Source: a virus. From it: a DNA stretch of 64,000 nucleotides. Location of the stretch: positions 1 through 64,000 of the IMG/VR virus record IMGVR_UViG_3300013099_000002, one strand, 5' to 3'. Positions 4,465 to 62,189 of the stretch are shown in pieces; within the stretch, counting starts at the first letter, position 1; every line of letters begins with the position of its first letter. The notes under the pieces are model-generated. The model saw nothing but the letters and a program-made list of their open reading frames with translations, was not told the DNA's origin and searched no databases. Both the position numbers and the translations under genes were made by a program.

Positions 4465-5094
4465 TTACCAGATAGATAAAGAGGATTGCATACAGTCAAC
4501 TTCAAAGGTTGAGCTGAATTGCTTGGTTGGAATTGCTGATACATTATTTTTTCCAAAATCAGAATCATAGAAAGAATAATCCTTTGTTGCCTTTACTTTG
4601 TTTATGCCGAATTCTTCATGCAGGTATTCAATCTGTTTTTGTGACTCTACAGCCTTCTTACAGTAGTTATCCCGAACGTAAGTAACTGCCTCCTTATCAT
4701 TGGTTACGTTTTTATATAAAGCGGCTAATACAAGCCCTGTTCGACCATGCCCACCTATACAACCTATATGTATTTTCTGATTTGCAATCAATTGCACTGA
4801 GAGCCATTCAATTAACTTTTTAAATTCAACTGTATCTTTAGGGGTTCCCATATCCTGAATGAAGAATCCTATTTCGTGTCCAGCACTCCAAGGGTATTCC
4901 TTTTCAGTTAATTTCATGGAGGTGTCAAGACCTACATAAATATCAGCGTCAAGGTGTATTGGTTTGGAACACGAACCACCATAGACAAAGTAATTTTTAC
5001 CTTCAATAGTGATAGGTAGTGCTGGGTGTGATTCACAACACCGTTTGTGGGTAGAGGTGAAACCTATAGAGGTTGCCGGTTTTTTATAACTCAT
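4465..5094 (-). CDS. protein tyrosine / dual-specificity phosphatase-like
   Basis: 209 aa. The P-loop signature CIGGHGRTG (C112, R118) fits the CX5R(S/T) active site of cysteine phosphatases; the usual His before the Cys is Gly. An upstream Asp-containing loop (FFIQDMGTPKD) could supply the general acid. A second, shorter paralogue lies at 6226-6714, with an unknown 353-aa gene between them. The gene carries one copy of the dispersed 14-bp repeat (4783-4796). Substrate unknown; it could act on protein, RNA 5' ends or phosphoinositides. Confidence 0.8.
   Translation of the reverse strand: MSYKKPATSIGFTSTHKRCCESHPALPITIEGKNYFVYGGSCSKPIHLDADIYVGLDTSMKLTEKEYPWSAGHEIGFFIQDMGTPKDTVEFKKLIEWLSVQLIANQKIHIGCIGGHGRTGLVLAALYKNVTNDKEAVTYVRDNYCKKAVESQKQIEYLHEEFGINKVKATKDYSFYDSDFGKNNVSAIPTKQFSSTFEVDCMQSSLSIW
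4783..4796. repeat. dispersed 14-bp near-palindrome, copy 1
   Basis: TGCAATCAATTGCA, exact. Inside the phosphatase gene (residues around 102-106). This copy and the ones below differ only in orientation of the central CA/TG. Confidence 0.9.
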
Positions 5095-5096
5095 AG

Positions 5097-6158
5097 TTAT
5101 GCCCTTATCATTTTTACTTTTTTAACTTTCTCAATTGGTGTGACTTGGAACCAAGTTTTGTTTTCTTCGTTCAAGGCCAAATCAGCTTGAAGTTGTTTTA
5201 TTTCTTGTGCCTTTTTAATAGTGGCAAGTTTATCGGCATGGTTTTTAGGTACCCCATATTTTTTAACTTGTTCCTTTTGTAGAGAAACATAATTTTGAAC
5301 CGCCCCTAATTGTTCAACCATAAACCAATCCACGTAGCCGGAAACAGATTCGCCTAATATGGCTTGTGCCTGTAATCGGAAGTCTCGGTGTGTATTATTT
5401 ATAAAGGGGGATTCATTACCATCAATTAATTGAGGTATCTGCCCAGCACGTTGTACATCTAAAATCTTTACAATCTCATAAGAATCGTAAGATGAGAACA
5501 ACATTCCTTTATTAAATATAGGCCCGTTATTGTGACAAAGAGTGAAGGCGGTATCCATCATCATTTCAGCAGAATAAACCCCTGTAACGAAGTTGTGGAG
5601 GCATTGAGTCACCTCCCCCCATGCCTTACCACCATACCCACCGGAAAAACTACCTTCATTAAATAAATCCAATAAGTGTCCGGTGTATCTCCCAAGTATA
5701 AATAAGTGGGTAGTTTCTCTAAATCGTTTTACGGCACCGGTGGAGGATTCATGGCTTATTGATTTAGTAAATTGAATAGGGTCATCACCATGTTTTTTAG
5801 CCGCCCCTGACCAGTCGTAGTCATCGTAAACATGCCTTGATTCCCGTGTACAAATCAAAAGTAAATAATAGAACATACGAACCGCTGATTTAGATAATTC
5901 CTCTTGGTAACGCATAACCAGAATTAACTTATCTCCTAGTGGTTCGTGTTTTCCTGTGGAGGCCATCACTTCAGATAAAATATGATTAGTTAAATAAAAA
6001 TTTATTGCCTCTTCTTCTGGCACAGCATATTTAGATTGATTATCCATGTAATCATTCATAGCAGTTACAAGCCCATCAACCGGCACCATGCTTTTATCTA
6101 AGTGTTGAGTCATTGGCCTATTCATTTGCATTGCCAATGTATCTTGTTCAAGTTTCAT
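5097..6158 (-). CDS. hypothetical protein between two phosphatases
   Basis: 353 aa, not recognised. Largely helical, with a SGGYGGKAWGE glycine-rich stretch near residue 172-182 and a charged C-terminus. It ends 2 bases before the first phosphatase starts, so it is co-transcribed with it from the promoter at 6191-6218. Its position between two PTP-like genes suggests it may be their partner or substrate (inference). Confidence 0.75.
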   Translation of the reverse strand: MKLEQDTLAMQMNRPMTQHLDKSMVPVDGLVTAMNDYMDNQSKYAVPEEEAINFYLTNHILSEVMASTGKHEPLGDKLILVMRYQEELSKSAVRMFYYLLLICTRESRHVYDDYDWSGAAKKHGDDPIQFTKSISHESSTGAVKRFRETTHLFILGRYTGHLLDLFNEGSFSGGYGGKAWGEVTQCLHNFVTGVYSAEMMMDTAFTLCHNNGPIFNKGMLFSSYDSYEIVKILDVQRAGQIPQLIDGNESPFINNTHRDFRLQAQAILGESVSGYVDWFMVEQLGAVQNYVSLQKEQVKKYGVPKNHADKLATIKKAQEIKQLQADLALNEENKTWFQVTPIEKVKKVKMIRA

Positions 6159-6190
6159 TTAGACCTCCGTGAATTGCATATCTAAGACTT

Positions 6191-6218
6191 ATTGTACTGA
6201 TATAATTTTAATTGTCAA
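6191..6218 (-). promoter_or_regulatory. sigma70-type early promoter
   Basis: -35 TTGACA (6213-6218), 16 bp, -10 TACAAT (6191-6196). A GGAGG site precedes the ATG at 6158. Confidence 0.85.
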
Positions 6219-6225
6219 ATTTAAT

Positions 6226-6833: not shown

Positions 6834-7205
6834 TTATCGTTTAGCTGAACAATCTGGACAAGGTATCATACCTCGCACATCCCCCTTACCATTACAGCGT
6901 TTGCATCCATCCCCATAACAAACAGGGCATTCTTCATAAACCGTTATTCTTTTGGAATCATCACACGAATTACATTTTATTAAATGTAAGCCTATTAGAG
7001 TGCGTCTCTTGACTAAAAAAACCCAATCCTTATATCGCATATTGCCGTGGAAGTGTTTGGTCTTTACAGCCAACCACAAGGCTTCTCGTAATTGAATCAA
7101 AGTATCTTTTGAACAATCACCAAAACCTAGTAAGGTTGCCTTGTGTAAAACGTCATCAGTAATGTTCAAGTCAGATAACCTGTCAACTTCATTCCGCTTC
7201 TGCAT
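6834..7205 (-). CDS. zinc-finger protein with DnaJ-type CxxCxG motifs
   Basis: About 123 aa from the ATG at 7205 (ribosome site AAGGAAA). An upstream in-frame start at 7244 would overlap the previous gene by 56 bases. C-terminal CNSC, CPVCYGDGC, CNGKG and CPDC motifs form probable zinc sites like the DnaJ central domain. The N-terminal half is helical. Possible regulator or antitermination-type protein; not certain. Confidence 0.65.
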   Translation of the reverse strand: MQKRNEVDRLSDLNITDDVLHKATLLGFGDCSKDTLIQLREALWLAVKTKHFHGNMRYKDWVFLVKRRTLIGLHLIKCNSCDDSKRITVYEECPVCYGDGCKRCNGKGDVRGMIPCPDCSAKR

Positions 7206-7503
7206 TCGCTTTTTCCTTTTCGGCTTCACGCCATAATTTACCACGTAGAATTTTCAGTGTAAGTGGTGCATCAATTACCGCCTTAACCACCTCCTTTGTA
7301 ATATCCACATTATCACCAGCAGAAACTCTCACATTAGGTAAAATTTCTGTTTGATTCCTGTCAGTAATTTCGTAGATTTTATCAATACTTTTTCCAATTA
7401 CTTTAAGCTTATATCGTTTGCTGTGGTAAATCCGTTCAACCTTTACCTGAATATCATTAATATAAAAATCTGAAGTTGAGTATAAAGATATTGCTAAGGC
7501 CAT
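7189..7503 (-). CDS. CsrA-like RNA-binding protein (tentative)
   Basis: 104 aa. The C-terminal part, VKAVIDAPLTLKILRGKLW, matches the CsrA core (VxxGIxAPxxVxxxRxEL) and the N-terminal DFYINDIQVKVERI resembles IxIGDxIxVxV. About 35 residues are inserted between the two halves, so it is longer than CsrA (about 61 aa). Known CsrA binds GGA in mRNA leaders, and many leaders in this phage carry ACGGA at the ribosome site. Lies in the PPDK operon. Family call from pattern only. Confidence 0.5.
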   Translation of the reverse strand: MALAISLYSTSDFYINDIQVKVERIYHSKRYKLKVIGKSIDKIYEITDRNQTEILPNVRVSAGDNVDITKEVVKAVIDAPLTLKILRGKLWREAEKEKANAEAE

Positions 7504-7972: not shown

Positions 7973-10105
7973 TTATCCCAGCGTTTTGTGAATGAGTGCA
8001 TGGTTACTTATTGATGTAGGAACCGTGTTAAATTCCTTACCGGATTTTGCCGCCATAGATAAAAGTTTAATTGTTAGCTCCGAAGAACCAATGTTTTTTT
8101 CAAGTTCAGGTGTTTGTTCTATGTACCCATCTGCATCAAGAACATCCCCCAAAGTTGTTAGTTGTTGTGCCACCTCCCAACCCTCTGTAACCAAAGAATC
8201 CAATAAATCCTTATCGGTTTCGGCAGGTAGTAGCAAACAATAGTCTTTTTTGGATGATGAGACATGCGTGTTAAGGGTTTCTATTTTTTTACGCATAACC
8301 TCATAGGGAGAATCAAAAACATCCCCAAACGCGCCCATAAAGGCTTTATCAGAATCAGACAAGTAGGAGTGTTTGAGGGTCATATCCAAAAACACCTTGA
8401 CACCTTCCCCTATCGTAAGGTTTAAAAGTAATGATTGTATCCCGTCATCACCAGATAAATTGAAAGTATCAATGTAAGTATCTTCAGTTAAGGAAAGTGC
8501 TTCTCCATTATAATCAGTTATTCGGTTAATAGTTCCTTTTTGTTTAGTTATGCAATTCAATAATGATTTAGCTTCATTTGATAATTCCCCCATCGTAATA
8601 GGAACCTCAATACCAAACCAAACATTGCCAGTTTTTCCATCAATAGTAATTAAATCACCTTCTTTAACCGCACATTTACCAAGCTTCCAAGCCCCGTAGC
8701 CAAGTTCGTGTAGTTCGGTGCAACCAACCACACAAGACTTATTTAAACCCCTTGCCACAACAGCGGCATGTGAAGTTGCTCCACCGGTTTGAGTTAATAT
8801 GCCAACGCAAGCCTCCATTGCCTCAATATCATCCGGTGTAGTTTCCTTTGCAATTAAGATTGCATCCCCAGTGCAATTGATTGCAAACTCAGCAGATAAG
8901 GCAACGATACCGGAAACAACTGAACCCGAAGCAGGTATTCCTGTGCCGGTAGGTTTCACTTTAAATGAAGGATTAATGTTTGCCTGTTGCAGTAATTCAA
9001 ACTCTTTATAGGATACCCGTTTAAGTGCTTCTGTTTTAGTTATTATCTTTTCAGAATACAGGTCATAAGCAATTTTAAATGCAGCTTGGGCAGACCGTTT
9101 ACCGTTTCTGGTTTGAAGGATATAAACCTTCCCATTTTCTATAGTAAATTCAATGTCCTGCATATCTTTATTGTAAGCTTCCAATCGTTGTGCAATTTCC
9201 AACAATTCCAGCTCCACCGTTTCATTCCATTCAGCCATTTTATATAGTGGGTCAGGTGTTCGGATACCGGCAACAACATCTTCGCCTTGTGCATTAACCA
9301 AGTATTCTCCAACCGTCCCAATATCGCCCGTATTAGCACACCTAGTAAACAATACACCTGAACATGAATTATCATTCAAGTTACCAAAAACCATGGCTTG
9401 TATCGTTACAGCGGTACCCCATTCATCTGAATAGCCATGCATTTTACGATAATGTTTGGCGCGTGGATTATTCCAGCTATCCCAAACCGCCACAATAGAA
9501 TCACGTAGCTGGTCATAAAGTGGAACCTCAAAGCAAGAATCCACCTGAAAATGATTACCATAAATTGCTTCATAATCAGTAACCACCTTAGTTAAATCAT
9601 CTTCGGTCAAATCCGAATCTTCAAGAACCCCTTTTGTCTTGGATAGTGCATCTTCAAACAGTTCAGAATCAATACCGTAAGCGGTGGTTCCCATCATTTG
9701 CATTAGTCTACGTTTAGAATCCAACATAGCCCTGCGCCCCAAGCGTTCCTCCCAAAATGGTTCCGATTCCTCAGTAAGCCCAACATTCAATATAGTGTCC
9801 ATCATGCCAGGCATTGATACCCTTGCCCCAGACCGAACGGACAATAAAGGATGGAACCCATATAATTCTTTTAGCCAAGTTATCTGCTCAATAACATGGG
9901 TCATAGTTTCATTAATTATTTCTGCTTTTTTAAATTTAGGTGCATTCAAATAGTGCATACAGGCGGTAGTTGGAATAATGAATCCTGCCGGTACCGGTAT
10001 TTTTAGGTTTGCAATTTCACATAAACCAGCACCCTTTCCACCCAATGTATTGATTTGAGCTTTGGTACCAGATGCGCCATTTTTACTAAAGTTAAATATT
10101 TTCAT
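7973..10105 (-). CDS. pyruvate phosphate dikinase-like protein lacking the PEP/pyruvate barrel
   Basis: 710 aa. The ATP-grasp half is clearly PPDK: SVRSGARVSMPGMMDT (89-104), NAQGEDVVAGIRTP (271-284), DMQDIEF (314-320). The swivelling phosphohistidine domain is intact: GGATSHAAVVARG (441-453) with catalytic His446. PPDK is normally about 870 aa and ends in a TIM barrel binding PEP/pyruvate. After about residue 490 I see no barrel motifs, only an unrelated ~200-residue region. The protein may load phosphate onto His446 and pass it to another acceptor. It has its own promoter (10135-10162) and a GGAGG site. One 14-bp repeat lies inside (8872-8885). Confidence 0.85.
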   Translation of the reverse strand: MKIFNFSKNGASGTKAQINTLGGKGAGLCEIANLKIPVPAGFIIPTTACMHYLNAPKFKKAEIINETMTHVIEQITWLKELYGFHPLLSVRSGARVSMPGMMDTILNVGLTEESEPFWEERLGRRAMLDSKRRLMQMMGTTAYGIDSELFEDALSKTKGVLEDSDLTEDDLTKVVTDYEAIYGNHFQVDSCFEVPLYDQLRDSIVAVWDSWNNPRAKHYRKMHGYSDEWGTAVTIQAMVFGNLNDNSCSGVLFTRCANTGDIGTVGEYLVNAQGEDVVAGIRTPDPLYKMAEWNETVELELLEIAQRLEAYNKDMQDIEFTIENGKVYILQTRNGKRSAQAAFKIAYDLYSEKIITKTEALKRVSYKEFELLQQANINPSFKVKPTGTGIPASGSVVSGIVALSAEFAINCTGDAILIAKETTPDDIEAMEACVGILTQTGGATSHAAVVARGLNKSCVVGCTELHELGYGAWKLGKCAVKEGDLITIDGKTGNVWFGIEVPITMGELSNEAKSLLNCITKQKGTINRITDYNGEALSLTEDTYIDTFNLSGDDGIQSLLLNLTIGEGVKVFLDMTLKHSYLSDSDKAFMGAFGDVFDSPYEVMRKKIETLNTHVSSSKKDYCLLLPAETDKDLLDSLVTEGWEVAQQLTTLGDVLDADGYIEQTPELEKNIGSSELTIKLLSMAAKSGKEFNTVPTSISNHALIHKTLG
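8872..8885. repeat. dispersed 14-bp near-palindrome, copy 2
   Basis: TGCAATTGATTGCA, inside the PPDK-like gene. A degenerate look-alike (TGCAATTAAGATTGCA) lies about 10 bases upstream on the + strand. Confidence 0.9.
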
Positions 10106-13300: not shown

Positions 13301-13328
13301 ATTATACATGAATAATTTTAATTGTCAA
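13301..13328 (-). promoter_or_regulatory. sigma70-type early promoter
   Basis: -35 TTGACA (13323-13328), 16 bp, -10 TATAAT (13301-13306). Confidence 0.85.
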
Positions 13329-13335: not shown

Positions 13336-13349
13336 TGCAATCAATTGCA
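13336..13349. repeat. dispersed 14-bp near-palindrome, copy 3
   Basis: TGCAATCAATTGCA, immediately after the thyX stop codon and 7 bases from the next promoter's -35. Confidence 0.9.
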
Positions 13350-14285: not shown

Positions 14286-14502
14286 TTGTTTCCTCTTCTT
14301 TTTTGTAAGTAGAAATAGTTAATCTGTCTGAACTATCATTCAGCCCAGAATAAATTATAATGCCATCATCAAACTTTGTAGCGTAACAATATTGAGCATC
14401 ATTATTGCTAATTCTACCTATGGCTAATACCTGCCCAACGTGGGTAAGTAATTCAGCCATAGGTATATTAGTTCGATTTTCAAGAATCAACTTCTCAATC
14501 AT
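14266..14502 (-). CDS. hypothetical protein
   Basis: 78 aa, not recognised. Overlaps thyX by 20 bases and the upstream gene by 4. Confidence 0.6.
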   Translation of the reverse strand: MIEKLILENRTNIPMAELLTHVGQVLAIGRISNNDAQYCYATKFDDGIIIYSGLNDSSDRLTISTYKKEEETNVQNDS

Positions 14503-14756
14503 TGAAAAGGACTCCCATCTTTTACCGCTTGTTTTACCGTTATAACTATTTGATTTTGCATTCTTTCAACAGAATAATCGGAACTTATTACCGCTATAAT
14601 TTTCTGTGCAAGTGCTTCTCTCATTTGTTTTTCGGCATCCTTTAAGGCTTGTTGAATTATTGGTTCAGCCGCCTCCAACATTTCTTTATTCAATACATCG
14701 AACATGGCTTTTCTAAAACCATCAGTATTCAACATATTGGTATCTGATAGTGCCAT
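14499..14756 (-). CDS. hypothetical helical protein
   Basis: 85 aa, almost entirely helical (AAEPIIQQALKDAEKQMREA), likely a coiled coil. Copy 4 of the 14-bp repeat lies just before its start, between it and the previous stop. Confidence 0.6.
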   Translation of the reverse strand: MALSDTNMLNTDGFRKAMFDVLNKEMLEAAEPIIQQALKDAEKQMREALAQKIIAVISSDYSVERMQNQIVITVKQAVKDGSPFQ

Positions 14757-14767: not shown

Positions 14768-14781
14768 TGCAATTGATTGCA
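14768..14781. repeat. dispersed 14-bp near-palindrome, copy 4
   Basis: TGCAATTGATTGCA, in a 26-base intergenic space between two small genes. Confidence 0.9.
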
Positions 14782-19223: not shown

Positions 19224-19251
19224 ATTGTACTTGAATAATTTTAATTGTCAA
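19224..19251 (-). promoter_or_regulatory. sigma70-type early promoter
   Basis: -35 TTGACA (19246-19251), 16 bp, -10 TACAAT (19224-19229). The -35 lies inside the last codons of the upstream gene. Confidence 0.85.
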
Positions 19252-19471
19252 ATTTATTTTCATTAGCAAATTTAATCTCATTGCCAGCCAAGCGTTCACT
19301 CAATGCAGATTGTATCTTTATAAGTTCCACATCCAAACTTTGTGCAATCAATTGCAATTCACAACGCCTACCTGTAATACGTTCATGCTTTGCCCAGAAT
19401 ATTTTAGCCCACTCATAATTAGTTTCGATTATTCCTGAATCTTTCCCGTTCACTATTACCTTGTATTGCAT
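19241..19471 (-). CDS. hypothetical protein
   Basis: 76 aa, not recognised. Its last codons (NKFDN) encode the -35 of the next promoter. Contains copy 5 of the 14-bp repeat. Confidence 0.6.
   Translation of the reverse strand: MQYKVIVNGKDSGIIETNYEWAKIFWAKHERITGRRCELQLIAQSLDVELIKIQSALSERLAGNEIKFANENKFDN
19343..19356. repeat. dispersed 14-bp near-palindrome, copy 5
   Basis: TGCAATCAATTGCA, inside the 76-aa gene, encoding LQLIAQ. Confidence 0.9.
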
Positions 19472-20935: not shown

Positions 20936-21133
20936 TTATTTACCGCCTCTTCCCAGTTCCATCAATAAACCATTAACATTTATAGGTGTCAAAGTTTCAC
21001 CTGTAGGGCTTTTCCAAGGCATTGCTTCATTATCCCTTTTAATTAGCCCTATAAATCTTTCTTGTAAATAAACATACAAATAATCACCATCACATACGAT
21101 ACGGTACCCAAGTCCTTCAATTATCTTTTTCAC
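20936..21133 (-). CDS. hypothetical protein
   Basis: 65 aa, not recognised. Ends within 3 bases of the promoter. Confidence 0.55.
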   Translation of the reverse strand: MKKIIEGLGYRIVCDGDYLYVYLQERFIGLIKRDNEAMPWKSPTGETLTPINVNGLLMELGRGGK

Positions 21134-21689
21134 CTAACACCTTATTGCAATCAATTGCACTTGCAAGCCGCAAATACTTTTCCTCATCAACTTCAAGTAT
21201 ATCATAGAGCCATGTTTTAAAATAATAGTCCAGCTCTTGTGAGCGTGGATGTTTACCTTTGTGGTAGGTAAGAAAATCCTTCCGGTTCTGAACTTTATCT
21301 GCTATTGCCATTGGTCGCAAATAAGGTGTTTTGCTCATCACATCATTAAGATTCTTAATAAGCAATTGCCTTCGTGGATTAATTACAGTTTGGGAGGAAA
21401 ATCTATTGAGTTGTTGCCGGTATTCCATGGCTATGATTATTGAAGCTGGATTACATTCTGCTAATAAATTAGGATGATAAGCTAACATCCTATGTAATTC
21501 TTCATCTAATTGAACCACCGGATGTAAACAATAGCCCTGTTTGCTTATTAAAGGGGCTGAGAGCGTATCTAAGACCACTAACCCCTCATCAATATGCGTT
21601 ATATAAGGTACATCGGTTCTTTTGGCTTTACGGCCTTTATACAGGTTCTTGATTATCTGGTAATGAACATCCTGATTAAATGGTGTCAT
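21117..21689 (-). CDS. HD-superfamily phosphohydrolase-like protein (tentative)
   Basis: 190 aa. The pattern RTDVPYITHI, GYCLHPVVQLDEEL and IIIAMEYRQQLN resembles a phage family related to HD / (p)ppGpp-hydrolase-type enzymes, with LHP where HD is normally found. Whether it is catalytic is unclear. Copy 6 of the 14-bp repeat is in its C-terminal codons. Confidence 0.55.
   Translation of the reverse strand: MTPFNQDVHYQIIKNLYKGRKAKRTDVPYITHIDEGLVVLDTLSAPLISKQGYCLHPVVQLDEELHRMLAYHPNLLAECNPASIIIAMEYRQQLNRFSSQTVINPRRQLLIKNLNDVMSKTPYLRPMAIADKVQNRKDFLTYHKGKHPRSQELDYYFKTWLYDILEVDEEKYLRLASAIDCNKVLGEKDN
21146..21159. repeat. dispersed 14-bp near-palindrome, copy 6
   Basis: TGCAATCAATTGCA, in the last ~15 codons of the HD-like gene. 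Confidence 0.9.
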
Positions 21690-23786: not shown

Positions 23787-24236
23787 TTACCCTCTCAGTG
23801 CAATTGATTGCAATTGTTCTTCACGTTCTTTACAGTGTTTGATTACCACCTTACATTGGTCTATTGACATTGAGCCAATATGACAGGCATGGTGGTCAAG
23901 TCCGGTTTTGCTACGCAACCATGCATAAGCTTTACCTCTGGATAGTTGTTTTTTCTTCCAAATATTATCGAAGAATGAGTGTGCCTGCATTCGCCATTGC
24001 CTTAGTTCTACATTGGCAAGATTCCCTAATGGTTCCTCAGTATTAGGATGACATCCTACACGGGCATCACATGGCTCACAGACAAAAAATATCTTTGTCC
24101 ACAAATCCTTACGGTGGGGGTAAACATCCTTACCTGTGGCTCTCACAGCAGAATTACCGCAATAGTTGCACGTTACTTCGCCTACTTTTGGCTCCTTTAC
24201 ACCTGCATCCAACATAGCTTGTCTTAAATTATTCAT
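23787..24236 (-). CDS. DUF3268-type zinc-finger protein
   Basis: 149 aa from the ATG at 24236. CNYCG...YPHRKDL...FFVCEPCDARVGCHP, PLGNLA and AYAWLRSKTG follow the DUF3268 zinc-finger pattern. Function unknown. Its last codons contain copy 7 of the 14-bp repeat (LQSIALRG). Confidence 0.7.
   Translation of the reverse strand: MNNLRQAMLDAGVKEPKVGEVTCNYCGNSAVRATGKDVYPHRKDLWTKIFFVCEPCDARVGCHPNTEEPLGNLANVELRQWRMQAHSFFDNIWKKKQLSRGKAYAWLRSKTGLDHHACHIGSMSIDQCKVVIKHCKEREEQLQSIALRG
23799..23812. repeat. dispersed 14-bp near-palindrome, copy 7
   Basis: TGCAATTGATTGCA, in the last codons of the DUF3268-type gene. Confidence 0.9.
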
Positions 24237-27579: not shown

Positions 27580-27777
27580 TTATTTCACTTCTAAGTTTGC
27601 AATTGATTGCACTGGGATTCTATACTCACTGTAATACTCTTCTGGGTATACTTCATACCCACCTAATTCATTGAGCTTGTTAAGTATGGCTTCGTTGTTA
27701 TGGTACCGCATACCCAATATCAGTTTTAGGTCTACACAAGCATAACACCGATTCTTATAAACAAGCTCATCTTGCAT
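27580..27777 (-). CDS. hypothetical protein
   Basis: 65 aa, not recognised. Its ATG overlaps the terminase stop. Copy 8 of the 14-bp repeat is in its final codons. Confidence 0.55.
   Translation of the reverse strand: MQDELVYKNRCYACVDLKLILGMRYHNNEAILNKLNELGGYEVYPEEYYSEYRIPVQSIANLEVK
27598..27611. repeat. dispersed 14-bp near-palindrome, copy 8
   Basis: TGCAATTGATTGCA, in the last codons of the 65-aa gene next to terL. Confidence 0.9.
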
Positions 27778-30235: not shown

Positions 30236-30865
30236 TTAAGCGTTTTTGTCTTTTCTTAATCTAGTAATGGTTTTCTCTAATCTGGCTCGGTTCAGCTCAT
30301 TACCAACGAAAGACATATTATTATCTATACACGCTTGAGCCGTGTATCCCATACCACAACATAAGTCCATACCTAGCCCTCCATCAGCCGGTCTAAGCAA
30401 CTTAAATACTTCTCTTGTACATTTGTACCCTTTCAAGTGATAAATGGGCGTAGCATCCAATGGCATCTTCCCTTCGGTATGGAAGAATATAATCTCCATT
30501 GGTAAGTTTTGCCCAGAATATACGGTTTCAATCTGAGTACAATAAGTCAATCCTGCCTCTTCAGCAAAATCAATTACTTTTTGAATCCACCGCTTACCAT
30601 ATTCGATAACCACCCAACCTTCGGTTTTATCTGCGGCATGAGACAACACTGTTTTAAGGAATACATCCACATCGAAATTACCAGTTGAAGTGTCTATATT
30701 GTTCATCTTCTTATTCATGGTGTCCCAGTATTTTAAGTTACCAGAACCCCACGGAGGGTCTGAGTAATAAATATCTGCTTTACGGTTCCCGACAAGTGTA
30801 GCTATACCCTTCTCATCGTGAATATCTCCGTGTCGTATTCTGTGCTTGCCTATATTTTTAATCAT
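30236..30865 (-). CDS. DNA N6-adenine / N4-cytosine methyltransferase
   Basis: 209 aa. Catalytic motif IV DPPW (36-39) precedes the SAM-binding motif I-like GLGMDLCCGMGYTAQ (about 162-176), the order of beta-class amino-methyltransferases. Small, with no recognition domain evident. Starts in a 4-base overlap with the IbrB-like gene, so it is part of the modification-type cluster 30236-34017. Confidence 0.8.
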   Translation of the reverse strand: MIKNIGKHRIRHGDIHDEKGIATLVGNRKADIYYSDPPWGSGNLKYWDTMNKKMNNIDTSTGNFDVDVFLKTVLSHAADKTEGWVVIEYGKRWIQKVIDFAEEAGLTYCTQIETVYSGQNLPMEIIFFHTEGKMPLDATPIYHLKGYKCTREVFKLLRPADGGLGMDLCCGMGYTAQACIDNNMSFVGNELNRARLEKTITRLRKDKNA

Positions 30866-34314: not shown

Positions 34315-34328
34315 TGCAATTGATTGCA
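34315..34328. repeat. dispersed 14-bp near-palindrome, copy 10
   Basis: TGCAATTGATTGCA, between the hairpin and the stop codon of the next gene. Confidence 0.9.
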
Positions 34329-34330
34329 AA

Positions 34331-34519
34331 CTACCGTTGTTTTAATCTTTGGTAAGCATTATGTTTTGTTACTTTATCATCAGATAGTATCTTCCCATTA
34401 TTGGAAGGTTTCATTCTTACTTTCGGGTCGTGGCATACATGGCACCAATAACCTATATAACGATAAAGTTTTTCATTATCACCACCGGTAACTCCACACT
34501 CAGGGCAACAGTATTGCAT
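34331..34519 (-). CDS. zinc-ribbon mini-protein
   Basis: 62 aa with CCPEC and CHVC pairs near the N-terminus, a probable zinc ribbon. Overlaps the thermonuclease stop by one base. Confidence 0.6.
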   Translation of the reverse strand: MQYCCPECGVTGGDNEKLYRYIGYWCHVCHDPKVRMKPSNNGKILSDDKVTKHNAYQRLKQR

Positions 34520-39042: not shown

Positions 39043-39903
39043 TTAATCCACTTCTGCAGTTAAGGAAACATCAGGCCATAATTCTTCAAATATTTCTAGT
39101 ACCTCTTCCCATGAAGAGCCTTTCATTGTATCTTTTAATGATTTAGGTTTAGGTGCCTTCTTAGGTTTGTTACCAGACAAATATGCCAAACAAATAGATT
39201 CCATTGCCACGTTAGCAAATTCCGTGTCAGCATCATTTTTAGCCTTATCCACGGCATCATTGATGACCTCTTTTTGGTCATCATGCACCTTAAAGGTTAA
39301 GGTTGATAATTTAGTTGATTCTTCCATTGCATCTGGAGCATCTTCATCATCCTCGTCATCAGAGGCAGTCGAACCTTTTTGTTGTTCTTTGATGTAGGCT
39401 TGTAATTGAATCACGGTTAGCTCGGAAGCAATTTCCACCCATTCATCAACATTTTCTTCATTGATAATATCGCACAGTTCTTTCAGTTTAGACCAACCCA
39501 AACCTTCAACCTTTTCCCATGGAATATTAGCTTCAACCAAGCCGTTATAAATCCCAACCATATACATTGCTTTACGATAACCAAGCCCATATTCTTCTTC
39601 AACAAAAGATTTGAAATTATCAAAACCCTCATCAGTGTACCAACCATTTGATTGAATAACCGATAGAACCCCACCCAACTGAAAATATGAAAAGTCAATA
39701 TCTTGAGCCAATTTTGAAACCATGGCATAAGCTTTCACCTTGGTTAAATTTTCAAGTTTGTGAGCGGTATCGACAATTAAATCAGATTTTGCTTTGGTAG
39801 CAGTTTTTGGTTTTACTGCTGTGGTAGTTTTTGGTTTCGCAGTTGTTGTTTTTTTACCTGCCGCAACTTTCGCAGCAGTTGTTGTTTTTTTAGCTTCAGC
39901 CAT
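39043..39903 (-). CDS. DUF3102-like protein with basic low-complexity N-terminus
   Basis: 286 aa from the ATG at 39903 (GGAG upstream). Residues 1-45 are Lys/Thr/Ala repeats. The middle (VLSVIQSNGWY, FVEEEYGLGYRKAMYMV) resembles DUF3102-type phage proteins. The C-terminus has an acidic linker and a KPKKAPKPK stretch. Probably DNA-binding. Confidence 0.6.
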   Translation of the reverse strand: MAEAKKTTTAAKVAAGKKTTTAKPKTTTAVKPKTATKAKSDLIVDTAHKLENLTKVKAYAMVSKLAQDIDFSYFQLGGVLSVIQSNGWYTDEGFDNFKSFVEEEYGLGYRKAMYMVGIYNGLVEANIPWEKVEGLGWSKLKELCDIINEENVDEWVEIASELTVIQLQAYIKEQQKGSTASDDEDDEDAPDAMEESTKLSTLTFKVHDDQKEVINDAVDKAKNDADTEFANVAMESICLAYLSGNKPKKAPKPKSLKDTMKGSSWEEVLEIFEELWPDVSLTAEVD

Positions 39904-40080: not shown

Positions 40081-40112
40081 TTTTTTAATCCGTTTCGTTT
40101 AATGTGAGCTTC

Positions 40113-40140
40113 ATTATACGCATATAATTTTAATTGTCAA
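40113..40140 (-). promoter_or_regulatory. sigma70-type early promoter
   Basis: -35 TTGACA (40135-40140), 16 bp, -10 TATAAT (40113-40118). Confidence 0.85.
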
Positions 40141-40152
40141 ATTTAATTTTAA

Positions 40153-40713
40153 TCATATTTCACTATTTGCAATCAATTGCAATTTTTCTATATCTTTAGG
40201 ATGTTTCTTAGCCCACTCTGTTAAAGCGGTTGCATTAACTTTAGGGACTTTTACATACCCCAATAAACCCAAACCAAATTGAGCTAAACAAAAAGCATCG
40301 ACCTCATTATCAGTCCCTTCTAGGTGCCAACGCTTGTAAGTTTCCAACATCATAACATCTTTCTTTACATTACCTTTACCAGAAACGAACTTTTTTAATG
40401 AAGTTGGGGGTATATCTAAAATAAGCACTCGGTATAAATGCAACGTGTATTTAATCACTGTACCCACTTCAACCAGCGTTACCAGTGTGTGCTTATTAGC
40501 GAACCCGTAGCCCTCAATTATGCAAACATCAGGCTCATACTTATCCAGTAATTCATAAAGCCTGTCTGCGAATGCTTTTAATCGTGGCATCCCTTTTAGT
40601 GTTGGAAAGTTCCATTCCTGCTTATACAGTAAATTTATTTTTTCTTCCCCGTGTTTCAATTCCAAGATAACCACGCCTGTTTTAGTTGAAGTATCCAACC
40701 CTAAAACAATCAT
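40153..40713 (-). CDS. RuvC-like Holliday-junction resolvase
   Basis: 186 aa from the ATG at 40713 (ATGA overlap with the upstream gene). RNase H-like fold: GLDTSTKTG, CIIEGYGF and NEVDAFCLAQ hold the acidic active-site residues of RuvC-type resolvases. Probably resolves recombination or replication junctions before packaging. Copy 11 of the 14-bp repeat is in the last codons (KLQLIANSEI). Confidence 0.8.
   Translation of the reverse strand: MIVLGLDTSTKTGVVILELKHGEEKINLLYKQEWNFPTLKGMPRLKAFADRLYELLDKYEPDVCIIEGYGFANKHTLVTLVEVGTVIKYTLHLYRVLILDIPPTSLKKFVSGKGNVKKDVMMLETYKRWHLEGTDNEVDAFCLAQFGLGLLGYVKVPKVNATALTEWAKKHPKDIEKLQLIANSEI
40168..40181. repeat. dispersed 14-bp near-palindrome, copy 11
   Basis: TGCAATCAATTGCA, in the last codons of the RuvC-like gene. 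Confidence 0.9.
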
Positions 40714-44005: not shown

Positions 44006-44019
44006 TGCAATTGATTGCA
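44006..44019. repeat. dispersed 14-bp near-palindrome, copy 12
   Basis: TGCAATTGATTGCA, in the 29-base gap before recA. Confidence 0.9.
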
Positions 44020-44020: not shown

Positions 44021-44497
44021 TTATTCTTTGTGAGTTGATATTTCTGATTGTAGCTCTTCAATCTTGTCATCCACCCACGTTTTTGCAAATTCGTAAGTAT
44101 CTTCAATTTCCTCATGTGAGCAAGGTACATGAAGCGATACTTGCGCCTTTACATTTTCATAATTGCCGATATTAACGGTAAGCCCCAAACTTATACCCAC
44201 ATTTACTGTAGGCCCTACATAGTTTGAGGCATTGGCTAATTTAATCTGAATATTCTTCGTGGTGCCATCTGGATACTCAAGACTTACATTCCCAGTTGGT
44301 TCCTTCATGTTGAATATTTCGCCATCAGAAACTTCATCACCATCAACCAACAATTTAGTTTCCTTAGATTGTTTAGCAATATCTTTGGTTTCTGGTTTCT
44401 TTGCAACGGTTTTTTTCGCTACAGGTTTTTGTTTTGCTTTTTTCGGTGCTTCTTCTTCTTCCGTGGCGGTACTTTTCTTTTTTATTTTTACTGGCAT
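44021..44497 (-). CDS. hypothetical protein with shared N-terminal tag
   Basis: 158 aa. Starts MPVKIKKK, then a Lys/Ala/Glu-rich tether to about residue 48, then a beta-rich domain. Adjacent to recA; similar proteins occur next to phage recA genes. Function unknown. Confidence 0.65.
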   Translation of the reverse strand: MPVKIKKKSTATEEEEAPKKAKQKPVAKKTVAKKPETKDIAKQSKETKLLVDGDEVSDGEIFNMKEPTGNVSLEYPDGTTKNIQIKLANASNYVGPTVNVGISLGLTVNIGNYENVKAQVSLHVPCSHEEIEDTYEFAKTWVDDKIEELQSEISTHKE

Positions 44498-44983
44498 TTA
44501 TTTCTCCCAATTATGGAACACAATTTTTGAGGCTTCTTTTAAATCCTGCTCGGCATCTAATTTAGCCCCACTCAATCCTCTCCTAATATCGGCAAAGGTA
44601 CATAATAATTTTACTTGATTAACAGTGTAGTATTTATTCCGTTTATCATCTTGAATAAAACCGGTAGGAATATCTTTATTTTTTATCCACAACCGGATAG
44701 TTTGTAGACCTCTACCAATTAAAGTACAGGCATCTTTTATGGAATAACATTCAAGGGTTTTTCTGCCGTGTAAATTTAATGTCACCACTTCAAAAGAATC
44801 AAACGGTTTTCTTGGTTTGGGTTTCCGTTTTGACTTCTTGGCATTTTCAAGGCGTACCTTTTCCCTATAATTTGGGTCGTTTTTATATCGTTCCCTTCGT
44901 TGCTCATTGAAATCCGCTTTATTGTCATCGTACCACTTTTTAAAGGGTTTCTTTTTTGGTCGTTTCTTAATTTTAACTGGCAT
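44498..44983 (-). CDS. MerR-like HTH protein with shared N-terminal tag
   Basis: 161 aa. Starts MPVKIKKRPKKK, highly basic to residue 60. The C-terminus, SIKDACTLIGRGLQTIRLWIK, is a MerR/excisionase-like helix-turn-helix. Possible DNA-binding regulator or recombination accessory. Confidence 0.65.
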   Translation of the reverse strand: MPVKIKKRPKKKPFKKWYDDNKADFNEQRRERYKNDPNYREKVRLENAKKSKRKPKPRKPFDSFEVVTLNLHGRKTLECYSIKDACTLIGRGLQTIRLWIKNKDIPTGFIQDDKRNKYYTVNQVKLLCTFADIRRGLSGAKLDAEQDLKEASKIVFHNWEK

Positions 44984-47264: not shown

Positions 47265-47501
47265 TTAGTTCATTACGTGCTGTTCTATCTGTATGCCTGT
47301 GTAAAGTTTGTTGGAAAAAATATCATGCTCAGTACAAAGGTTGACAATTAAATGGCCTACAAGGTCTGTTGCAGAACCACCATCAACTTTTAAGGTTACT
47401 AATTGCTCCGGTTCAATTTGTGCAAGAAACCAAATCAACCGATTTAATCTAATTCCTTCAGTCACGTTCAAAGTGCTGAAAGGTTCTTCTTGTTCGCTCA
47501 T
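47265..47501 (-). CDS. hypothetical protein
   Basis: 78 aa, not recognised. ATGA overlap with the primase stop. Confidence 0.55.
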   Translation of the reverse strand: MSEQEEPFSTLNVTEGIRLNRLIWFLAQIEPEQLVTLKVDGGSATDLVGHLIVNLCTEHDIFSNKLYTGIQIEQHVMN

Positions 47502-48472
47502 TTCTCATCCAGTGTTAAGTAGGGTTCAAGTGCTTCGTATATTTCCAGCTCGGTCATGTTTCCGGCATCATCCTGTTCTTCTGTTGGTATTAAGTGAATT
47601 ATTGCAGAGTTCTTTAAAAACTTATCTAAGCCCTCTCTTGCCATGTTTCCTCCTTTACCATAGTCGTACAAGGTAATAACATCTAACGCGCCTCTAATAC
47701 GCTCTATTTTCTGCTTACCCATACCGCAGGATAAACTGCACATCACATTTTTATAGACTTTTCGTATCTGAATAAAATCGAATACCGACTCACATAAAAC
47801 TACGGTCATTTCGAGGTCTACCCATTCTTCTCCAAGCCACGGTAATTTATTCCAATGATTATTGTATTTATAGGCATTATACGAAGGCGTGGTGCCTTTT
47901 AAGATTGCTCGCCCATGCAATCCCATCAACTTCCCATCAAAGTCTCTTAAAGGTATGCATACGCGCTTATATTTTGAATCGAACCTGAAATCAAGTTCGT
48001 GTATTTCTAGTGGTGTTAATCCACGGCTTTCTAGGTATAACAAACCATCCTTGAAGAACTTTGCTTTCTTAAAGGACTCCAAGAATGATTCGGCAAATAT
48101 CTTGGTTACAACTTTAGGTTTCACAGTCCCATTCTCATAGTCTGGAATATCAAGTTCGGCATTTTCATTTTCGTCAGCAATCAGTTGCAAAGCCGTAGAA
48201 AAATCATAACCCTCATCTGAGGTTGCCCCTTCATGTTTTAAGTCGATAACCATATCCATTAAATCACCATGGGAGTTACAGCTAAAACAGTAAAATCTTG
48301 ATTGTTCATTAGGTTTCTTTTCCACCCCGAATGAAGGGTGGTTGTCTACACCGCCTTCATGGAACCAAGGTGCAAAAACACAAGTGGCTAACACCCAATC
48401 ATCCCTGTTTTGATTTTCGCATGGCTCAGAGCCTAATGCTTTTAAAAATTTATGTATACGTTGCTCATCCAT
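47498..48472 (-). CDS. DnaG-type primase (TOPRIM)
   Basis: 324 aa. Zinc-binding CVFAPWF...HPSFGV...FYCFSCNSHG, then a TOPRIM region (VVLCESVFDF, LYDYGKGG). The catalytic DxD-type motif is divergent (DYGKGG). Full length. Its first ~32 residues are duplicated, diverged, as a truncated copy upstream (48887-49003). Confidence 0.85.
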   Translation of the reverse strand: MDEQRIHKFLKALGSEPCENQNRDDWVLATCVFAPWFHEGGVDNHPSFGVEKKPNEQSRFYCFSCNSHGDLMDMVIDLKHEGATSDEGYDFSTALQLIADENENAELDIPDYENGTVKPKVVTKIFAESFLESFKKAKFFKDGLLYLESRGLTPLEIHELDFRFDSKYKRVCIPLRDFDGKLMGLHGRAILKGTTPSYNAYKYNNHWNKLPWLGEEWVDLEMTVVLCESVFDFIQIRKVYKNVMCSLSCGMGKQKIERIRGALDVITLYDYGKGGNMAREGLDKFLKNSAIIHLIPTEEQDDAGNMTELEIYEALEPYLTLDEK

Positions 48473-48890
48473 AACCGTTAGATATTCTCCATACAGTTGT
48501 TTTTCCTACACCTAATTTAGATGCAATAGCTCTAGTGGTTTTTCCCTCCTCTAATAATTTTTTTACTTCTGATTTTATTTTAGAAGTTTTGTATTTAGTT
48601 CTGGTGTAAGGTCTACGATTGTATGTTTGCTGACTAGGTGTAGCCCAGCGACAATTATCTTTTGAGTAGCCCTTACTGTTATCCCGTCTATCAAGAGATA
48701 ACCCTTTTGGGCAGGTACCCATATCTTCAAAGTAATTGGAAAAAATCAACCACCTATTGCAGACAGCTATACCTCGCCCACCATAATCTTTATCATTTTT
48801 ATCAGCACACCTAGCTTTCATTTTTTGCCATCTTGAATATTCAGGGTTACGTTTACCATTTAACCTTGACATACCGTGTGTTTTTTTCAT
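48465..48890 (-). CDS. HNH-type homing endonuclease inserted at the primase start
   Basis: 141 aa from the ATG at 48890 (GGAG upstream). EYSRWQKMKARC, YGGRGIAVCNRW, SLDRRDNSKGYSKDNCRW match the paralogue at 35937-36518; C-terminal HTH (TTRAIASKLGVGKTTVWRI). It lies between a 38-codon primase N-terminal fragment and the full primase, and its stop overlaps the primase ATG. Confidence 0.82.
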   Translation of the reverse strand: MKKTHGMSRLNGKRNPEYSRWQKMKARCADKNDKDYGGRGIAVCNRWLIFSNYFEDMGTCPKGLSLDRRDNSKGYSKDNCRWATPSQQTYNRRPYTRTKYKTSKIKSEVKKLLEEGKTTRAIASKLGVGKTTVWRISNGYG

Positions 48891-49003
48891 AATAACTCCA
48901 AAAAAAAAGGACAAGTTGCCAGTACCCACTCATCCCGATTCTGAACATCACACGGTTCAGAACCGAGAGCTTGCAGGAATTTTACAATCCGTTGTTCATC
49001 CAT
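48887..49003 (-). pseudogene. truncated duplicate of the primase N-terminus
   Basis: 38 aa, starts MDEQRIVKFLQALGSEPC, closely related to the primase start MDEQRIHKFLKALGSEPC (DNA clearly diverged). After LATC it runs into the endonuclease leader and stops. TAATG overlap with the upstream gene shows it is the old 5' end of the primase gene left by the endonuclease insertion, or a donor copy. Confidence 0.75.
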
Positions 49004-49537: not shown

Positions 49538-49565
49538 ATTATACATACATAATTTTAATTGTCAA
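49538..49565 (-). promoter_or_regulatory. sigma70-type early promoter
   Basis: -35 TTGACA (49560-49565), 16 bp, -10 TATAAT (49538-49543). The leader holds a CATTCC/GGAATG hairpin. Confidence 0.85.
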
Positions 49566-49577: not shown

Positions 49578-49591
49578 TGCAATCAATTGCA
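49578..49591. repeat. dispersed 14-bp near-palindrome, copy 13
   Basis: TGCAATCAATTGCA, immediately after the DnaB-like stop codon. Confidence 0.9.
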
Positions 49592-54747: not shown

Positions 54748-55035
54748 TCACTCCTTTAGTTTGTGGTGGTTTATACAGTCGGTTTGATTATCGAACACTA
54801 ATTCCCGACCAGATAAATTAAGTGGTATCCCCATTCGATTAGCTAAATTAACGAAATCATTTTGATGCCCCATTAAAAGCATGTGACCGGCACATTGAAG
54901 CGTGGTTTCTTTGTGGCATACAAAACTACCAGCCATTAAAATTTCAATCATACGTTCTTTACCAAGCCACCCAAGTAAACTGTCTTTACGAAAAGGACAA
55001 GCACCACAAGGTTTCTTTACGTTAGGTAATTTCAT
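54748..55035 (-). CDS. DUF6283-like protein, second copy
   Basis: 95 aa from the ATG at 55035. KKPCGACPFRKDS and FVCHKETTLQCAGH give the CxxCPFRK...CH...CAG pattern; paralogue of 23404-23784. The start is unusual: copy 14 of the 14-bp repeat fills the place of the ribosome site between leader and ATG. Confidence 0.65.
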   Translation of the reverse strand: MKLPNVKKPCGACPFRKDSLLGWLGKERMIEILMAGSFVCHKETTLQCAGHMLLMGHQNDFVNLANRMGIPLNLSGRELVFDNQTDCINHHKLKE

Positions 55036-55042: not shown

Positions 55043-55056
55043 TGCAATTGATTGCA
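55043..55056. repeat. dispersed 14-bp near-palindrome, copy 14
   Basis: TGCAATTGATTGCA, 8-21 bases upstream of the ATG of the DUF6283-like gene. Confidence 0.9.
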
Positions 55057-56570: not shown

Positions 56571-56584
56571 TGCAATCAATTGCA
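56571..56584. repeat. dispersed 14-bp near-palindrome, copy 15
   Basis: TGCAATCAATTGCA, directly after the stop codon of the 140-aa gene. Confidence 0.9.
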
Positions 56585-56585: not shown

Positions 56586-57008
56586 TTATTTTAATTTTAC
56601 TGCAGTTGAACCGTGAATAATGAATTCATCTTTTGGCAATAGTTCCATATTACCTTTCTCAATAGAAAAGAATGCATCGTCACCTAATTCATGTACAGCA
56701 TCATAATAAGTTACAGCTCTATATCTTCGTGGTACCGCCAACCAACCACCATTAAAGTTAATAAATCTAATAAGGTTAATAAGCATTGAAATATCAGCCC
56801 TACATTTATCTTCATAGGTTCTACCTACATGATAAGCATAATCGTGTAAATCAAATACTTGAGTACAATCCAACCCCCATAAAGTATTAGGAATTAAAGC
56901 ACTTCTCCAATCACTAGATGCACCAGCACCGTTACAAATTTTAGCTTTCTCTTCAGGCGTTAATTCATTAAATCCTGCTTCTGCTATCAGTTCGTGGTTA
57001 TGCTTCAT
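56586..57008 (-). CDS. conserved phage protein, PLA2-like histidine motif
   Basis: 140 aa. CTQVFDLHDYAYHVGR and YYDAVHELGDDAFF are found in phage lysis-region proteins. The C...HDYAYH arrangement recalls phospholipase A2 (CxxHDxCY) but the other PLA2 cysteines are missing. Function unknown. Confidence 0.5.
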   Translation of the reverse strand: MKHNHELIAEAGFNELTPEEKAKICNGAGASSDWRSALIPNTLWGLDCTQVFDLHDYAYHVGRTYEDKCRADISMLINLIRFINFNGGWLAVPRRYRAVTYYDAVHELGDDAFFSIEKGNMELLPKDEFIIHGSTAVKLK

Positions 57009-60592: not shown

Positions 60593-60601
60593 ATCAGACT
60601 C

Positions 60602-60796
60602 CTATCTAATTAGTTTTCGTAAATTAATTAATTCCGTGTCGTGTCTATGACAGCACGAATTCAAATATTCAACTTCCCATTCTGATTCTGTTTTTTCAGA
60701 GTCAAATGCGAACTTCCCAGAAGCCACTTCAATTAACTTGCCATTGTTCATTTTAATAAAAGCCGCTAACCCTAATTTTCTTGTTTCAATTCTCAT
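60602..60796 (-). CDS. conserved small phage protein
   Basis: 64 aa. RKLGLAAFIKM and SEWEVEYLNSCCHRHDTELINLR resemble small DUF5659-type phage proteins. Function unknown. Confidence 0.55.
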   Translation of the reverse strand: MRIETRKLGLAAFIKMNNGKLIEVASGKFAFDSEKTESEWEVEYLNSCCHRHDTELINLRKLIR

Positions 60797-61254
60797 ATCA
60801 CTCTACTCTCTATTTTGTGGTACTTAACTTTGCCTGCCAAGTAAGCACTTGAGGCTAATTTTTCTGAATTATAACAACCCAAACTAATACGTTTACCATG
60901 CAACACAATTCTAGCTTCAAAGGAACCATTATTAACCATAGAATAACCTTTTACATTACTACGGTTAAATTGTTGCTCACTATGAGTAAGTAAACGTAAA
61001 TTAGAAATATCATTACTATTTCTAATTCTATTAAAATGGTCTACTTCAAACCCTTCCGGTATAGCACCATAATGATATACCCAAATAAGATTATGCGCCT
61101 TGTGCTGGATACCATCAACCCGTACACAAACATAGCCATAAGAATTAACACCAGTTACGGCATCGCCTAATCTAGCTCTACCTTTATCAACTAGCCAGAA
61201 TAAAGTACCATCTTTGTATGTAAATAAAGATTTTATTTCCTCAACAGTAATCAT
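60793..61254 (-). CDS. HNH/AP2-type homing endonuclease
   Basis: 153 aa. DHFNRIRNSNDISNLRL is a HNH core (HxxxN...N), with FEARIVLHGKRISLGCYNSEKLASSAY as an AP2-like DNA-binding part. Inserted among virion genes; stop/start overlaps with both neighbours (4 bases). Confidence 0.85.
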   Translation of the reverse strand: MITVEEIKSLFTYKDGTLFWLVDKGRARLGDAVTGVNSYGYVCVRVDGIQHKAHNLIWVYHYGAIPEGFEVDHFNRIRNSNDISNLRLLTHSEQQFNRSNVKGYSMVNNGSFEARIVLHGKRISLGCYNSEKLASSAYLAGKVKYHKIESRVI

Positions 61255-61796
61255 ATTACTGTACTCAATCTCAACACTTTGAGGTCTAAAACCTCAGAGT
61301 GATTATTAGTTAATTCCAATTGGAAAAAAAGCCCACCCGAAATAAATACATCTATTGAGTATGGAACTAAATCACCAGTTATTCCGTAATGAGTATGTTT
61401 TGCTACAGTACCATTATGGATTGCTACAACTTCACTAATTCTTCGTTTATTGCCCACTGCATCAAGAGCCGTAATTATCCACTTTGAAGATGGATTTAAG
61501 GCCACTGACAGACTATCAACAATAACACTTGCACCAACACCAACAGAAGCATTTATTTGCTGTGCCGCTGTCCCATCGTTACCTTTAGGCCCTATTGCAC
61601 CTTGAGTACAGGATTCTAAAATTTCAGTAACATTGGCTACAGATAATATTTCAGTCTCTTCCACCGATTCAATAATTTCAGTAACATCTGCCACATCATC
61701 AATGTAGGTAATGTTATCAACAGATAATAATTCTGTAACTTGGTCTTGTGTAACCAACTCACAAACTGTTTCTGTTTCTGTAATTATAGAAGTCAT
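61251..61796 (-). CDS. virion protein with collagen-like segment
   Basis: 181 aa. A helical acidic N-terminal half, then GAIGPKGNDG (collagen-like GxY triplets), then a beta-rich C-terminus. Typical of phage tail or fibre-associated proteins. Confidence 0.55.
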   Translation of the reverse strand: MTSIITETETVCELVTQDQVTELLSVDNITYIDDVADVTEIIESVEETEILSVANVTEILESCTQGAIGPKGNDGTAAQQINASVGVGASVIVDSLSVALNPSSKWIITALDAVGNKRRISEVVAIHNGTVAKHTHYGITGDLVPYSIDVFISGGLFFQLELTNNHSEVLDLKVLRLSTVI

Positions 61797-62158
61797 GGTC
61801 TTGTTACTTCAGGGTCAACAGTGAAACCACCCTTAACAATACGAATAACATTTTCTGGGTCTGCGGTTTCTACAAGTTCTAAATCGTAAACACCCGATAC
61901 CCAAACCATTGCTTCAGTATCCGTTGCCCCAACATATAAATCTATACGTCCAGTTTCCGAACCAGCTTCAATAGTTATTCTACCGTTAGCAGTTGTGAAT
62001 TCCTCCAATACTGTATCAGAATCAATAGATTCACGAATCTGCATTCTAGCTTCATAACCGGCTAAAGAAATCGCCACCTTATCAGCGTCACGCCTAAAAA
62101 ACGTGTGCCTAAACGTAGCCCCTTGTTCTATCAATAAGTCTTTTTCGACTGCCGCCAT
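61793..62158 (-). CDS. baseplate/tail assembly-type protein
   Basis: 121 aa. EQGATFRHTFF, DLTGYxARMxIR-like (SLAGYEARMQIR) and VYDLELV are typical of a small phage structural family near tail genes. Role not established. Confidence 0.55.
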   Translation of the reverse strand: MAAVEKDLLIEQGATFRHTFFRRDADKVAISLAGYEARMQIRESIDSDTVLEEFTTANGRITIEAGSETGRIDLYVGATDTEAMVWVSGVYDLELVETADPENVIRIVKGGFTVDPEVTRP

Positions 62159-62175
62159 AATTCACCTCCACTCGT

Positions 62176-62189
62176 TGCAATCAATTGCA
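62176..62189. repeat. dispersed 14-bp near-palindrome, copy 16
   Basis: TGCAATCAATTGCA, in the 35-base gap between two virion genes. Confidence 0.9.

Follow-up and report, generated by a model that had tools for sequence, protein, structure and literature searches.

A 14-bp palindrome dispersed at even intervals in a family of large siphophages, and a phage protein that may bind it

Why does a phage carry the same short palindrome again and again along its chromosome, and which protein might read it? The question is raised by the first 64,000 nucleotides (positions 1 to 64,000, here called the window) of the IMG/VR virus record IMGVR_UViG_3300013099_000002, in which the sequence TGCAATNNATTGCA, that is TGCAAT-(CA/TG)-ATTGCA, occurs 16 times. 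We examined these sites in the window, in the phage record to which it belongs (89,837 bp, designated G000) and in related phages and loci, which are referred to by their handles where they must be told apart. Our interpretation, which we consider probable, is that the palindromes are sites for a phage-encoded protein, here named gpX, and that they are kept throughout the genome for organising, tethering or segregating the phage chromosome. The literature that was searched held nothing on such a system, and none of the three motif sequences occurs there. The even spacing, the recurrence and sequence variation of the motif among relatives, and the candidate cognate protein encoded in the window all go beyond the initial annotation of this DNA.

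A palindrome repeated at even intervals

All 16 copies listed in the initial annotation were recovered at the same positions, eight in each orientation as it had counted, and its argument that such a sequence should almost never occur by chance was borne out by dinucleotide-preserving shuffles, which gave an expectation of 0.01 +/- 0.1 copies in the window. A count over the whole phage genome, which it had also proposed, gave 21 copies in the 89,837-bp record, all with CA or TG at the centre, and no match to a reversed control pattern. The sites show no preference in orientation. Those of the window, given without strand, are:

4783 to 4796: site TGCAATCAATTGCA, within gene 4465-5094
8872 to 8885: site TGCAATTGATTGCA, within the PPDK-like gene 7973-10105
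13336 to 13349: site right after a stop codon, upstream of a TTGACA/TATAAT promoter; orthologue in G004 with centre CA changed to TG
14768 to 14781: intergenic site adjoining the ribosome-binding site of 14499-14756
19343 to 19356: site within gene 19241-19471
21146 to 21159: site in the last codons of 21117-21689; kept in G004
23799 to 23812: site in the last codons of 23787-24236
27598 to 27611: site in the last codons of 27580-27777, upstream of a promoter with its -35 at 27577
30913 to 30926: site near the end of the ParB_N-like gene 30862-31590
34315 to 34328: site shortly past the stop of 34331-34519
40168 to 40181: site in the final codons of the RuvC-like gene and upstream of the promoter of gpX, which has its -35 at 40140; kept in G004
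44006 to 44019: site shortly past the stop of 44021-44497; kept in G004
49578 to 49591: site directly past the stop of the helicase gene, upstream of a promoter with its -35 at 49565
55043 to 55056: site upstream of the start of 54748-55035
56571 to 56584: site shortly past the stop of 56586-57008; kept in G004 with the centre flipped
62176 to 62189: site shortly past the stop of 62194-62511

By our own gene calls, eight of the window sites lie in gaps (seven at 0-4 nt past a stop codon and one just upstream of a start), five in the last ~17 codons of a gene, and three (4783, 8872 and 19343) deeper within genes. The initial placement of most copies after stop codons or in final codons therefore describes the window well, but not the family; in the Stenotrophomonas phage DLP5, 19 of the 27 sites are within genes, mostly deep. 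Intergenic positions are enriched in both phages (43% of sites versus 6% of positions in G000, 22% versus 3% in DLP5), and despite this enrichment the majority of the sites are genic, many of them deep inside genes. Four sites of G000 begin 21-41 bp upstream of a -35 box, which the promoter-near sites do not overlap, and most sites are away from promoters.

Relatives of the major capsid protein are found in siphophages of Stenotrophomonas (DLP3, DLP5, Summit), Vibrio (SIO-2, VHS1), Rhizobium and Rhodobacter, all at less than 60% identity, and the phage collection held no close DNA match for the first 24 kb. The motif-bearing family consists of bacterial viruses of ~80-120 kb with one site every 2-5 kb. 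TGCAATNNATTGCA itself was present in 23 of the 33 related or motif-bearing records, with up to 50 copies (18-50 in relatives), and also in the cultured Stenotrophomonas phages DLP5 (27 copies) and DLP3 (25 copies); the same sequence recurs in dozens of related siphophages of 38-62% G+C. De novo inverted-repeat scans of the relatives without it found another dominant palindrome with the same 14-bp layout, constant within each genome and present in up to ~50 copies. The half-site is TCCAAT in G001 (12 copies), of the TGCACT type in G005 (19), TGATCT in G009 (7), TGAAAT in G046 (8), TGCAGT in G049 (14) and TGCAGA in G050 (28), while a TGCAAC variant, counted on the inner ten defined bases, is found in G047 (30), G048 (49) and G051 (12); Pseudomonas phage SM1 carries TGCAARCGYTTGCA in ~30 copies. 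The centre is usually a pyrimidine-purine step (exceptions are G047/G048 and G015/RHph_TM16), and the motif is weak or absent in G010 and G014.

Loss of the sites in otherwise close relatives, which the initial annotation had thought would speak against a functional motif, was not what we found. G000 and G004, which are 75% identical where they align, share 9 of 14 aligned sites exactly at orthologous places, compared with 0.25 expected; two of these nine have the centre flipped from CA to TG with the palindrome retained, and four of the remaining five differ by one base within the half-sites. G001, a relative by its major capsid protein, has no exact TGCAATNNATTGCA and carries the cognate variant TCCAAT-YR-ATTGGA.

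The sites are also evenly spaced. The coefficient of variation of the gaps in G000 is 0.44, compared with 0.93 under random placement, and similarly even spacing was observed in G011, G019, G020, G021, G045, G050 and DLP5. Fisher's combination over 32 genomes gave p ~3e-29, a value that is indicative, near relatives being not fully independent. When the in-gene or intergenic status of each site was kept in the null, even spacing still had p <= 0.0005 in five of six genomes and 0.002 in the sixth. Significantly even spacing was not reached in G006, G008, G009, G013, G014, G032, G043, G044, G046, G047, G051 and RcZahn. Because the spacing is even, a role in chromosome organisation or segregation is suggested rather than the switching of single genes.

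gpX, a candidate binding protein encoded in the window

The protein that we propose as the binder lies among RuvC-, exonuclease- and RecA-like genes, and its relevant features are:

39043 to 39903, minus strand: gpX, 286 aa, family phrog_17202 (unknown function), proposed binder of the sites
39481 to 39483, minus strand: codon of K141 of gpX, a residue that covaries with half-site base 5
39574 to 39576, minus strand: codon of R110 of gpX, a nearly invariant residue that is S in G001
40111 to 40143, minus strand: TTGACA-N17-TATAAT promoter lying between the site at 40168 and the start of gpX

gpX is present in every complete motif-rich genome; in DLP5 it is gp067. Distant motif-rich contigs that were found via the motif alone (G027, G029, G030 and G032) also encode it, and it is lacking from long contigs in which the motif occurs once by chance (G024, G031 and G033). 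Among 84,980 species genomes, searched with a pattern that favours close relatives, gpX was found in three, in each case on a contig of 46-68 kb from a metagenome-assembled genome, and this rarity is in line with a non-integrating phage. Homologues carry the name 'ribonuclease E/G family' in public records of Rhizobium phage RHph_TM16 (L437) and Vibrio phage J26 (H52), and 'single-stranded DNA binding protein' in some Pseudomonas phages; neither name is supported by our analysis.

Of 57 genomes or loci, 28 have a site between -450 and +150 relative to the start of gpX, compared with 9.3 expected, and in 22 of these 28 it is at -66 to -119, where density alone would give ~1. RecA, exonuclease, helicase, primase and VRR-NUC genes, taken as controls, showed no excess of sites near their starts. 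In DLP5 the site upstream of gpX is 9 bp upstream of a -35-like element. Because of this site near its own promoter, gpX probably controls its own level.

Residue 141 of gpX, in the stretch LGW-S/T-K-L-K-E/D-L, varies with the fifth base of the half-site. With K141, A is the commonest base 5 in all 45 genomes or loci; with R141, base 5 is C in four of five genomes and mixed in the fifth (G008); and with A, S or Q at this residue it is G or a mixture of A and G. G005 and L370 are among those with R141, and G050 and G049 among those with A or S. Base 5 has changed at least six times on the gpX tree, and in four supported independent pairs residue 141 shifts with base 5 in nearly every pairing drawn and never oppositely. 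R110 is replaced by S solely in G001, and no other genome seen has TC rather than TG as bases 1-2. The top column covariation score of gpX is 5.4, compared with 3.1-4.3 in other proteins, a difference that is modest alone. At the level of whole genomes, motif distance correlates with protein distance no more distinctively for gpX (-0.45) than for the exonuclease (-0.47); only the site-level tests single out gpX. A forward prediction was made of C5 palindromes in G010 and in locus L386, both with R141; neither has a dominant palindrome, and so the prediction of C5 was unsupported. Taken together, these sequence comparisons strongly support the pairing of gpX with the motif.

The structural model of gpX (mean predicted local distance difference test score 82) has a helical core at 41-177, a helical C-terminal region at 200-286 that is probably dimerising, and a predicted disordered stretch at residues 1-40. 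In a Foldseek comparison with the PDB, Spo0J-parS 4umk (probability 0.72, E 1.2) and Noc-NBS 6y93 were among the top seven, so the modelled fold weakly resembles the DNA-binding domains of Spo0J/ParB and Noc; viral matches were phage proteins of unknown function, DUF3102 proteins and one Spo0J-like protein. The ParB_N CTPase domain is absent from gpX and from 60 aligned homologues, and other proteins of the window do match it.

Possible functions of the sites

In the mechanism that we favour, a gpX dimer would read the two TGCAAT half-sites through a putative helix-turn-helix, with residue 141 helping at base 5, and gpX bound near its own promoter would probably set its own level. Selection would maintain sites at 2-5 kb intervals along the whole chromosome, within genes and between them alike, and gpX would thereby decorate all of the phage DNA; the most likely purpose would be to organise, tether or segregate the phage chromosome. 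We favour this because of the even spacing over the whole genome, its independence of genes, the dedicated and apparently autoregulated protein, and the extrachromosomal prophages of the family: DLP5 is temperate with a phagemid prophage (PMC5834331), and the VHS1 prophage is described as extrachromosomal (PMC3148565). More tentatively, and with somewhat less than even confidence, we suggest that an autoregulated helix-turn-helix protein distinct from ParB CTPases coats the phage genome, and that its diversifying recognition code marks each genome as self.

Several observations weigh against this interpretation. Four independent pairs are too few for significance (sign test p 0.125), SM1 (A141 with A5) and SIO-2 (K141 with an A/C mixture) break a simple code, and in G010, G006, G009 and G014 the sites are few, absent or unevenly spaced. 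gpX is missing from the virion protein list of DLP3 (PMC7326821); it is thus not a proven virion DNA protein, which is weakly against a role inside the capsid. The PDB fold matches are all weak (E 1.2-2.3), no Pfam family, HTH_ParB included, matches gpX, and an hhalign comparison with two ParBs, using a two-sequence template of little power, was not significant. A search for the ParA signature KGGxGK[ST], which covered that signature only, found none in 13 of 15 genomes, and the glycine-rich matches in the other two are in large tail proteins and apparently spurious. Three fragments (G028, G002 and G023) have motif copies without gpX, likely due to fragmentation, given that G028 also lacks the whole replication/recombination module.

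The main rival is global repression. Here gpX would be the master repressor of lysogeny and the sites stoperators or operators silencing the whole prophage, as with L5 Rep and P1 C1, and we consider this unlikely. Temperate family members are known (PMC5834331, PMC3148565), a site is found at the gpX promoter, four G000 sites begin a short distance upstream of a -35 box, and the lineage-specific motifs look like immunity groups, all of which would suit a repressor. However, most sites are away from promoters and many are deep in genes, the spacing is even irrespective of gene layout, the promoter-near sites are upstream of the -35 and not over it, and gpX is also encoded by relatives described as lytic. 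The sites are enriched in intergenic gaps, yet they are mostly genic and so not concentrated in short gaps or at promoters as in L5. The initial annotation had read the motif as a protein-binding site, which fits all of the evidence and has now gained a candidate protein; of the functions that it offered, the parS-like or nucleoid-organising ones are favoured, and the even distribution of the sites, the many that are found deep in genes and the absence of any general tie to promoters speak against the stoperator.

Improbable, in our judgement, is a second possibility, that the sites are dispersed centromeres of a classical ParABS system, with gpX as ParB and a ParA yet unfound. The extrachromosomal prophages and the weak similarity of gpX to the ParB/Noc fold point in that direction, and N15, with several inverted-repeat centromere sites (IR1-4), offers a precedent (PMC7205306). 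The scanned genomes nevertheless have no KGGxGK ParA signature and gpX no ParB_N CTPase domain; 20-50 evenly spaced copies far exceed what a centromere needs, and the sites are spread over the whole genome rather than clustered in the manner of parS. ParABS in the strict sense is not supported by these sequences.

About equally improbable is that the sites are self-identity marks for DNA processing, whether Chi-like, for packaging or for protection from the phage's own nucleases. The RuvC-, exonuclease- and RecA-like neighbours of gpX would be in keeping with this, as would the even spacing reported for uptake sequences (PMC1939737), but palindromic, lineage-specific sites that match a protein and include one at the gpX promoter are foreign to uptake and Chi sequences, and there is no orientation preference.

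A different binder is very doubtful. The candidate first favoured was a small MerR-like helix-turn-helix protein (44498-44983, minus strand), whose gene stands conserved beside RecA in 19 of 23 genomes; its column covariation is weaker, and it is absent from many motif-bearing loci that have both flanking genes (RcZahn, G015, L329, L344, L372, L383 and others). It is a conserved basic protein with an N-terminal W-Y...R-x-R-Y-x-x-D-x-x-Y-R motif. The ParB_N proteins at 30862-31590 and 33412-34017 were rejected as binders, being not conserved across motif-bearing phages. Least credible of all is a host protein reading a host motif, methylation or uptake signal, as the motif differs among related phages and tracks a phage protein, and the density in host DNA that the initial annotation had named as the mark of such a signal was not seen: in a 6.4-Mb metagenome bin with a gpX contig, 19 of 23 motif-like sites are on two contigs and four elsewhere, with no enrichment on the host contigs.

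If chromosome organisation by gpX is correct, it provides a testable model of chromosome management in large non-integrating temperate phages and a function for phrog_17202, a family of unknown proteins. Evenly spaced protein sites over a whole genome are hardly known in phages, and residue 141 with base 5 would offer a natural series of protein-DNA specificity switches. There is also relevance to phages considered for therapy, for Stenotrophomonas and Pseudomonas are among the hosts of the family and some of its members form extrachromosomal lysogens.

Some other features of the window were noted. Its minus strand has, between 259 and 55114, ~16 near-identical promoters TTTGACAATTAAAATTAT-N3-GTATAAT (for example at 13328, 27077 and 40140), with an unusual, strongly conserved spacer between -35 and -10, and G004 has a comparable set. 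The cluster at 30236-34017 (two ParB_N-type proteins, a PAPS-reductase/DUF3440 protein and a partial methyltransferase-like open reading frame) possibly serves DNA modification; DLP5 DNA is reported to be heavily modified (PMC5834331). A 38-aa open reading frame at 48887-49003 is a repeat, at 82% identity, of the N-terminal 33 residues of the DnaG-like primase next to it (47498-48472), and between them lies an open reading frame with an HTH_23 domain (48465-48890), an arrangement that looks like a mobile-gene insertion with a duplicated primase start. Other conserved proteins, also weighed as candidate binders, are a DnaD-like initiator and two of unknown families found in nearly all relatives near the polymerase, phrog_25950 (3629-4387, minus strand) and phrog_20946 (5097-6158, minus strand). 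A conserved 104-aa family protein (7189-7503, minus strand) appeared CsrA-like by eye, and a PDB sequence search gave this no support.

Comparison with known systems

Many dispersed sites for a phage-encoded protein, with lineage-specific sequence, are familiar from the Rep stoperators of mycobacteriophage L5 and the C1 operators of P1; those sites silence transcription, whereas here many are deep in genes and regularly spaced. KorB of RK2, a ParB-type helix-turn-helix protein, acts in regulation and partition through ~12 dispersed OB palindromes and, in contrast to what was seen for gpX, has a ParB_N domain and a ParA partner, IncC. The DNA uptake sequences of Pasteurellaceae and Neisseriaceae are similarly short, abundant and reported to be evenly spaced (PMC1939737), but they are not palindromic sites of a cognate encoded helix-turn-helix protein, and are not phage-borne; the enrichment in the host chromosome expected of such sequences was not seen in the 6.4-Mb bin.

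N15 is a temperate phage that is likewise extrachromosomal, and one DNA-binding protein, SopB, has several separate inverted-repeat sites on it (PMC7205306); it has only four such sites and a full SopA/SopB system, whereas the present family, in which no ParA was seen, has 20-50 sites at even spacing. MatP is one organising protein with a short target, matS (13 bp, 23 copies), over a domain (PMC3330122); in E. coli the matS sites are in one 800-kb Ter domain and not over a whole genome as in the phage. No relation of gpX to MatP was seen, gpX having no Pfam match, although no search was aimed at MatP.

The gpX system may follow a logic comparable to that of MatP/matS or of Noc/NBS, without a ParB CTPase domain or a detected ParA. 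Noc is a CTPase with ParB_N, which gpX lacks, and it has a helix that binds the membrane; the terminus is free of NBS, whereas the phage sites are distributed evenly along the entire genome. In other respects Noc/NBS is alike: it has ~70 dispersed palindromes around the Bacillus subtilis chromosome (PMC4331003), the modelled fold of gpX weakly matches Noc-NBS, and, as R201 of Noc/ParB reads C6 of the half-site (PMC7383237), R141 of gpX goes with C5.

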